Made by a program: the position numbers and the translations under genes
Shown here: piece by piece, positions 29,745-45,794 of the stretch
Position numbering within the stretch: the first letter of the stretch is position 1
Layout: each line of letters opens with the position of its first letter
Assembly: GCA_944325635.1 (NCBI GenBank)
Contig: CALVBD010000006.1
Coordinates: forward strand, 1 to 64,000
Origin: Candidatus Gastranaerophilales bacterium
GTDB taxonomy: Bacteria > Cyanobacteriota > Vampirovibrionia > Gastranaerophilales > Gastranaerophilaceae
Direction of reading: 5' to 3'
Length of the DNA: 64,000 nucleotides
The notes under the pieces: model-generated
The model's database searches: none
What the model was told of the DNA's origin: nothing
The model's input: only the letters and a program-made list of their open reading frames with translations

Positions 29745-29776
29745 AAAGACCGCTTCTAATGAAGCGGTCTTTTTTA
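29745..29776 (+). terminator. fba terminator
   Basis: AAAGACCGCTTC (29745-29756) pairs with GAAGCGGTCTTT (29761-29772) around TAAT, followed by T residues. It overlaps the stop of the convergent prepilin gene. Confidence 0.88.
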
Positions 29777-30630
29777 TTTATAAAGAGATTTTATCATATC
29801 TGCAGTAAGTTTTCCGCCGCTTTCTGCAGTCATGCAATCTCCTGCACCCACTATTAACTGTGATATTGAAGCTTGACCTGTTCTGGCATTATTCCTAATC
29901 GCCATAACAAAAATATCATATCCCCATTTATTAGGCCCTTTTTTACCGTTCACATCATAGGCAAAGCTTGTCCCCTTATCACCATTATAAGCACTTATTA
30001 TAATACTTCCATCTGCCAGAACATAACTGGCGGTTGTATTATCCAGCTGGCTTTTAGTCCACATTGCGCAGCCCGCAATCATTTGTTTGCCGTAATCATC
30101 CATATAATCATCATCACCCGGTTTTGCGCTCTGACTTTCTTGTGCAATCTCGTCACGTCCTTTGTATTGCGGAATACAGCCTTTTTGTAAAGAATTTTTA
30201 TCACAAGTTTTTATAATCTTTATCTGTTTTCTTACAAGCGGCCAAAATTGTGGACAATCATCAACTTCGCCTGTTTGATTTTTAGGAACAGGAGAACCAT
30301 CCAACTGGGTTGATGAGGTGCAAACGCCAAGAGAATTATAGTTTGAACATTTTGTCGGGACTAAACTGTAAGTCCGCCTATAACAAGAAGGCATACCACC
30401 CCAGTCAGATTGCGCTTTAATAACTGCCTGAGACAGCATTGAATATCCTTTTTTAAACTGATTTCTTAAAACTACTTCCTGATATTTTTTTGTCAAAACC
30501 GGAAGAGTCATTGCAGCAACAATTCCGATTATACCAAGAGTTATCAGAACCTCTGCTAATGTAAACCCGCTAACTGAGAGGGATTTAGTTTGCCCCCCCC
30601 CCCAAATGCAGTCATATCAACAATTTTCAT
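29774..30630 (-). pseudogene. Type IV prepilin-like protein, out of frame at a G11 run
   Basis: Translation should start at ATG 30630, six bases after AAGGAGG. The start gives MKIVDMTAFGGGGKLN and then stops after 24 codons. The run of 11 G (30593-30603, read as C on the plus strand) causes this: with 12 G the frame would read FGGGGQTKSLSVSG-FTLAEVLITLGIIGIVAAMTLPVL and continue to 29774, about 285 residues. No start codon precedes the prepilin signal in its own frame. The C-terminal part has NGKKGPNKWGYDIFVM, a loop shared with the prepilin at 44921. It may be a phase-off gene, a true mutation or an assembly error. Confidence 0.82.
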
Positions 30631-44920: not shown

Positions 44921-45709
44921 TCATTTCAGCATCATTTCTTCTGCAGACTGTCCGCCTTTTTCAATAAGTTCGCAGACAGCAGTCAAGCCAAGTACGGCTG
45001 ATTTTTCGTTCCTTTTATATAAATTCAGATAGAATAAATCATATCCCCATTTGTTCGGACCTTTTGTTCCGTTTACATCAAAACCGAAAAAGAGAGTATT
45101 ATGAAAAGGTTTAAAATCAGGGTCGTACACATCCCCGTAGATATATATAATTGAGCCGTCATTTAAATTAAAACCAACATGTTCATTAATAGGAAAGGAA
45201 CAATTATTATTAACGATAGTACCGCCTGCAGCAAGAACTTCTGCCTTTGTTTTATATTTTGGACGGCAAGCGGAATTATTATGGTCGCAAATTTTGACGG
45301 ATTTATACTGTTCAAAAACCTTTTGCCAGAATTCATTACACTGATCATATCTGTATCCGCTACCGCCTACAGTTAATGTATAACATTCATAAGGAATTCC
45401 GTTTTCTGAGTTCACTGTATTGATTGCAGTTTGTAAGTTTGCATACGTTTTTTTAAATTGTGATTCCAGAACTTTATGCTGATATTTCCCCGTTAGTACA
45501 GGAAGTGTCATAGCACTAACTACACCAATAATTCCGAGGGTTATAAGAACTTCCGCAAGGGTAAATGCATTTTTAACACCTGACAGGCAAGAAAAGCCAA
45601 AGCGGCTCAGCCTTAATAACAATCCCCTTGTTTCTCTGCTTTTTAGTGTCGGAGAGTTGTATCTACGATGCCCCCCCCCCCCAAATCCAGTTATATCAAG
45701 GTTTTTCAT
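44921..45709 (-). CDS. Type IV prepilin-like protein with G12-encoded leader, in frame
   Basis: 262 residues from the ATG at 45709, nine bases after AAAGGAG; an ATG at 45736 lies before that signal. The start is MKNLDITGFGGGGH, with the four glycines encoded by 12 consecutive G (45671-45682). A long leader to residue 49 is followed by A-FTLAEVLITLGIIGVVSAMTLPVL, a prepilin cleavage site with Ala at -1 and Glu at +5. The C-terminal loop NGTKGPNKWGYDLFYL is shared with the broken prepilin at 29774. It would be cleaved by prepilin peptidase and enter a pilus or pseudopilus. It sits inside the rhamnose gene cluster on the other strand. Confidence 0.85.
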   Translation of the reverse strand: MKNLDITGFGGGGHRRYNSPTLKSRETRGLLLRLSRFGFSCLSGVKNAFTLAEVLITLGIIGVVSAMTLPVLTGKYQHKVLESQFKKTYANLQTAINTVNSENGIPYECYTLTVGGSGYRYDQCNEFWQKVFEQYKSVKICDHNNSACRPKYKTKAEVLAAGGTIVNNNCSFPINEHVGFNLNDGSIIYIYGDVYDPDFKPFHNTLFFGFDVNGTKGPNKWGYDLFYLNLYKRNEKSAVLGLTAVCELIEKGGQSAEEMMLK

Positions 45710-45794
45710 ACTCTCAATCTCCTTTATTATTTTCATGTTATTATAAATTTATTATATAATATTTAACAATCAATTTCAAGAATAAGGATATTTT

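Follow-up and report, generated by a model that had tools for sequence, protein, structure and literature searches.

A portable poly-G leader as a probable default-OFF switch of prepilin genes in a Gastranaerophilales bacterium and its family

The analysed DNA (the window) is a stretch of 64,000 nucleotides from a Candidatus Gastranaerophilales bacterium. Its minus strand carries a tagged prepilin gene (positions 44921-45709), encoding a protein of 262 aa with a leader of 48 residues before the phenylalanine of the FTLAE motif. The predicted protein begins with MKNLDITGFGGGGHRRYN and leads up to KNA/FTLAEVLITLG (the slash marks the predicted processing site). The gene contains (i) the leader tag ATGAAAAACCTTGATATAACTGGATTT (MKNLDITGF; 45683-45709), (ii) a run of 12 G residues, the putative slippage tract (45671-45682), (iii) a Shine-Dalgarno sequence, AAGGAG (45719-45724) and (iv) a -10-like hexamer, TATAAT (45740-45745), with a second copy at 45751-45756, the last two features being read from the sequence. 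The lead of 27 nt and the G12 run make up 39 nt, which places FTLAE in frame, and the gene is ON as sequenced. In the ORF list its start is placed at an ATG at position 45736, upstream of AAGGAG; since this codon lies 5′ of the Shine-Dalgarno sequence, position 45709 is the likely start.

A second tagged prepilin gene is located on the same strand (29774-30630). Its tag, ATGAAAATTGTTGATATGACTGCATTT (MKIVDMTAF; 30604-30630), is followed by a G11 run (30593-30603), and the resulting 38 nt ((27+11) mod 3 = 2) place FTLAE out of frame with an offset of 2. This gene is OFF as sequenced, its prepilin frame being otherwise uninterrupted. The sequences and frame states of both genes are exactly those claimed in an earlier, sequence-only reading of the window. 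The N_methyl profile of Pfam matched tagged prepilins with E-values of 2e-4 and 4e-4, at and slightly under the cut-off (slightly under it for the gene at 45709). A profile of mature relatives matched solved type IV pilins of the PDB (E 3e-4 to 3e-3) along the N-terminal helix.

We extended the inspection to the whole genome (2.0 Mb, 13 contigs, 99.75% complete). This analysis revealed 56 runs of at least 8 G, mostly of 11, compared with about 3.6 expected from base composition, and approximately 46 separate runs of at least 10 G in 2 Mb, compared with about 0.12 expected, which rules out a chance origin or two isolated copies. Most of the runs of at least 10 G sit on prepilin leaders. A motif search detected at least 87 FTLAE prepilin genes, 40 with a G run and 47 without, a gene being counted as tagged when the run lies no more than 260 nt upstream of FTLAE (39 runs of 8 or more, and one of 7). 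A motif of the FTLAEVLITLGIIG type is present in these genes, in agreement with the class III signal peptide of type IV prepilins (a leader, then G or A before F-T-x-x-E, and a hydrophobic N-terminal helix), and a prepilin peptidase is also encoded (PF01478, E 8e-12, open frame of 333 aa). The untagged prepilins mostly have the usual short leader, e.g. MKKA/FTLAEV, and the leaders of the tagged ones are longer. A typical tagged gene starts with AGGAGG..ATGAAAACTATTGATATGACTGGATTTAC-G11-CAGCxTAG..., followed by the prepilin. The runs (G9-G17) are located 24-44 nt past the start codon, inside the coding sequence, and are long enough to slip. With start codons set by a script rule, which leaves alternative starts possible at some loci, a Shine-Dalgarno sequence is present in 36 of 38 tagged genes, and 32 of the 38 have TATAAT no more than 60 nt away from the ATG (shuffled mean, 5.8). 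The sequence-only reading had thus recognised a real tag but underestimated its extent: the tag is found on about 40 prepilin genes of this genome and across the family, so that a restriction to two copies, which that reading had named as the case against its proposal, is excluded.

The register of the tagged genes is strongly biased. Among 38 tagged loci of the genome, the distance from the ATG to the F codon has one nucleotide too many in 29 and two in 7, while 2 loci are in frame, one of which is the gene at 45709. This gene is therefore an exception, because the family as a whole is OFF by default, with a single register conserved. For the whole genus (g1), lead length, tract length and downstream phase are combined in 27 ways, which gave register +1 in 66 cases, +2 in 13 and 0 (ON) in 3; 34+G11, 33+G12, 32+G13 and 36+G9, for instance, share a total of 45 nt and, given a single downstream phase, are all +1. 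The running frame reaches a stop at a median of 8 nt past the run, by means of TAG, TAA or TGA; for the third frame the median is 19 nt (p = 1e-6). Tagged pilins are in frame in 16 of 154 sampled loci (binomial p = 3e-11 against one third) and in 19 of 114 loci of a class-wide scan (p = 5e-5); these two sets partly overlap, the sampling of other genera is not exhaustive, and the p-values overstate independence, because copies are related, and are therefore descriptive only. The earlier proposal of a switch controlling a family of pilins is in line with the portable tag, the ON and OFF states and the varying tract lengths, but a default OFF state held in one register had not been foreseen.

Several features of the leaders were considered separately. 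Translation starting after the G run was rejected, as most leaders contain no ATG, GTG or TTG between the run and FTLAE; a possible start codon at this position is found in L037 and L046, which may be exceptions. A start codon in the OFF frame directly upstream was also rejected, as the common tag has a TGA in that frame. Two tagged prepilin genes (L059 of genome G000 and L303 of genome G006) have ATA in place of the ATG start, preceded by a normal Shine-Dalgarno sequence. Hairpins with TGA in the loop follow the run at several loci of genomes G010 (L195, L199, L202, L205) and G021 (L330, L339, L345-L347), with stems that vary by copy (CAGAC/GTCTG, CTGAC/GTCAG, CGAC/GTCG and CCGGC/GCCGG). Such a hairpin is characteristic of some loci of these two genomes but is not a general feature (19 of 154 loci, compared with 9.6 in shuffled sequences). 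Four loci (L180, L227, L236 and L083) contain an extra FTLAE motif within the leader, e.g. GFTLAEDATHVDMSKGSRKSA/FTLAEV and GFTLAEVSSTLSHGNYKFA/FTLAEV, which suggests a decoy or a duplicated cleavage site.

The distribution of the tag was examined in related genomes, seemingly metagenome assemblies, with one genome per species. The pattern ATGA-(20-34)-G9 was found in 76 of 146 genomes of the family, representing 29 of 41 genera, and its frequency in genomes with many matches was mostly well over the reversed control; these matches include non-prepilin tags, and some examples in G025, G063 and G132 resemble repeats. When the prepilin motif was required in addition, matches came from 44 of the 240 genomes examined in the class, every one belonging to this family; tag and motif did not occur together in any of the 96 genomes sampled from the other families of the class, and the reversed pattern never matched. 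Scans of a viral contig set for the tag, performed with regard to a phage origin, gave no match. The leaders are genus-specific, e.g. MKNLFRNVYGGG in g22, MNKSxNRHGGG in g41 and MKNDIVNMYAGGG in g10. The peptide consensus of the sequence-only reading (MK-x-x-D-x-T-x-F) accordingly holds only within the genus of the window. The modal tract and register are G11/+1 in g1, G13/+1 in g10, G10/+2 in g22 and g7, and G9/+2 in g38, so that the ON state corresponds to the mode minus one G in g1 and g10, and plus one G in g22, g7 and g38.

Tract lengths differ stepwise around these modes, a variation that the sequence-only reading had proposed to look for. In g10, copies with lead and downstream phase 0 comprise one G9, four G11, 13 G12 (ON), 23 G13, one G14 and one G15 tract, and in g22, with the flank phase fixed, 13 tracts are G10 and two are G11 (ON). 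Both frame states therefore exist at a fixed flank phase in these two genera, i.e. a change of one unit shifts the frame. L340 carries G12 (ON) and L331 and L338 carry G13 (OFF), with approximately 98-100% identity over 60 nt downstream. Near-copy pairs with different tract length are only 4 of about 24. The length spread is wide at G13 and narrow at G10, which fits polymerase slippage. Loss of MutS was rejected as a cause of tract instability, since a MutS_I domain is present in an open frame of 874 aa.

The tag is portable, as had been proposed. When the label tagged or untagged was mapped on a tree of 74 pilin bodies, 23 changes were required, compared with about 25 after shuffling, and at least 13 of them are forced by well-supported branches; on this tree the leader has a nearly random distribution. 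Between species, the pilin bodies of L068 and L313 are 97% identical and their ATG-to-FTLAE stretches 76%, and for L065 and L314 the respective values are 86% and 30%. The tag is also carried by a gene of another kind: in L049 (G000:C1 690437-693445) a 34-nt prepilin-type tag (IIASKLR-GGG) with G11 and register +1 stands on an RgpF-type (rhamnan synthesis) glycan gene; L310, the corresponding gene of G006, carries a related tag that also has G11 and is +1. In L033 (G000:C1 98426-101434) a G17 run with offset 2 is followed by a start resembling a signal peptide and by repeats of the Chlamydia PMP type; this locus encodes a non-pilin surface protein, which is probably subject to switching as well. 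Two further loci have no pilin tag and look like ordinary poly-G loci, namely L066, a Stealth-type glycan gene with G12 close to its start, and L067, an FkbM methyltransferase gene containing G8. L031 and L032 (G000:C1, about 30 kb) are adjoining similar genes with G11 and G10 in their coding sequence and approximately 270 codons open upstream.

The silent copies appear to be maintained. Pairs of orthologues that are OFF both here and in genome G006 gave dN/dS values of 0.07, 0.10 and 0.13, and the gene at 45709 (ON) compared with its OFF orthologue gave 0.11; the near-identical pair L080/L304 has too few changes for dN/dS. These values indicate that silent tagged copies are under purifying selection and, together with the intact frames, rule out dead pseudogenes.

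On the strength of these comparisons, we consider it probable that the leader is a portable, default-OFF phase-variation cassette which acts by replication slippage and controls the pilin repertoire. In this view, each tagged gene comes with a promoter and a strong ribosome-binding site of its own, and its leader of 9-12 codons ends in poly-G. In most cells the length of the run would put the prepilin frame one nucleotide off, and the ribosome would stop a few codons past the run, with no pilin made. Replication slippage by one G, by -1 in this genus and g10 or by +1 in g22, g7 and g38, would fuse leader and pilin in frame. Cleavage by the prepilin peptidase ahead of FTLAE would subsequently take off the leader, glycines included, and the mature pilin would therefore bear no trace of the switch. 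With about 40 independent default-OFF switches per genome, single cells would display few pilins from a large silent repertoire. We infer that slippage occurs at replication, is reversible within populations and toggles pilus composition. Among the three slip readings (replication, transcription, translation), that of replication is favoured because copies vary stepwise. Transcriptional slippage, which the sequence-only reading had named beside replication, seems the less likely of its two options, given that G/C runs showed no transcription insertions genome-wide in E. coli and Buchnera (PMC5574713).

The conservation of the register is, however, stricter than simple switching would predict. 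In our view it reflects selection that keeps the genes OFF at a distance of a single slip from ON, although recoding at the level of expression would fit too. According to this unlikely, though not negligible, explanation, the out-of-frame run is itself functional, and the ribosome or RNA polymerase slips on it, so that every copy yields a small fixed fraction of full-length pilin; ribosomes would shift +1 in this genus and -1 in others, with the early stop setting the ratio. One register strictly held over many combinations of lead and tract agrees with this, as do the three phase combinations with the same register in g7, the early stop of the running frame, and the strong purifying selection despite the OFF state. 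The orthologues L038 and L291, with leaders 64% identical, both have 67 nt from ATG to FTLAE. Locus L166 (G000:C1 343308) bears on the choice between recoding and phase variation: its tract is interrupted (G6AG3), yet the +1 register is kept and the pilin frame is intact, as recoding would have it. On the other hand, the direction needed differs by genus (+1 in g1 and g10, -1 in g22, g7 and g38) and is conserved only within a genus, whereas programmed frameshifting implies a conserved direction and site. In-frame copies, which make up about one third in g10, would escape such control. The sole tRNA-Gly(CCC) found has a normal anticodon loop of 7 nt, which argues against ribosomal recoding and led us to reject a sufD-type frameshift suppressor tRNA reading GGGG. 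Recoding by RNA polymerase is disfavoured, as G/C runs are not slip-prone in E. coli and Buchnera (PMC5574713). It is likewise doubtful that the off-by-one register is the working state, with dozens of pilins made solely via ribosome slips on G9-G13, in a recoding system common to about 40 genes per genome, and replication slippage occasionally locking single pilins fully ON.

It is improbable that the tracts are in reality in frame and that homopolymer miscalling, by one base throughout the assemblies, simulates a default-OFF state. The apparent metagenomic origin of the compared genomes, the N gaps within G runs of genome G085 and the tract lengths of Bifidobacterium breve that differed from the annotation (PMC9187656) would favour such an error. 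Systematic miscalling is nevertheless unlikely because its sign would differ between genera, being +1 in g1 and g10 but -1 in g22, g7 and g38; moreover, it would not depend on length (G9 to G13 in g1), and copies within one genome differ from each other. Very improbable is a silent archive, in which tagged genes serve as gene-conversion donors for expressed untagged pilins and the G run is a recombination aid or relic. Tagged and untagged sister pilins exist, some of them close (L051 at C1:788402 and L217 at C1:790080), and leaders are swapped between pilin bodies, but most tagged copies retain a promoter, ribosome-binding site and start codon, none of which a silent donor needs, and purifying selection acts on entire bodies, few of which are truncated. 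Finally, it is hardly credible that the run is chiefly the target of a C-rich regulatory RNA with frame effects secondary, for although many loci share one common run near the start codon and RepG of Helicobacter offers a precedent for a C-rich RNA acting on a G run (PMC8295292), the conserved out-of-frame register and the post-run stop would be left unexplained.

The probable replication-slippage cassette resembles three described systems. A direct precedent is offered by B. breve UCC2003, likewise a gut commensal, in which two sortase pilus clusters (bbr_0113 and bbr_1889) have an intragenic G10/G11 run. These genes are out of frame in the annotated genome, as here, and become productive by -1(+3n) replication slippage at the DNA level (PMC9187656). 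The B. breve system consists of two clusters of sortase pili with no shared leader described, whereas here about 40 independent genes encode type IV-type prepilins, with a portable leader, a conserved OFF register and a run inside a leader predicted to be cleaved off. The poly-G loci of Campylobacter jejuni and Neisseria belong to diverse genes that are not known to share a leader and that occur in a mixture of ON and OFF states. Their phasomes are similar in that one genome has numerous homopolymer runs in its surface genes, and in frame-based ON/OFF switching (PMC4965091, PMC5953494). The present system differs in its single leader design, one protein family, a near-fixed distance from the ATG and approximately 90% of copies OFF. 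In the pilE/pilS system of Neisseria gonorrhoeae, silent promoterless donors supply one expression locus. A large, mostly silent pilin repertoire and the involvement of a G-rich element are common to both (PMC3547852). In contrast to pilS, most copies here have their own promoter and start, and are one G from ON.

Poly-G phase variation is already known, and no description of a default-OFF portable pilin leader was found in the open-access literature searched. A mobile leader which sets about half of the pilin repertoire OFF, one G from ON, and which has genus-specific versions throughout the family, resembles a repertoire that is silent by default more than it does a set of scattered contingency loci. 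The start sites of most tagged genes will be misplaced by gene callers. A default-silent repertoire predicts that each cell would carry a small random subset of pilins. With such a switch, the reason for retaining this large number of pilins becomes accessible to testing, as does a possible selection among them by hosts, phages or neighbours.
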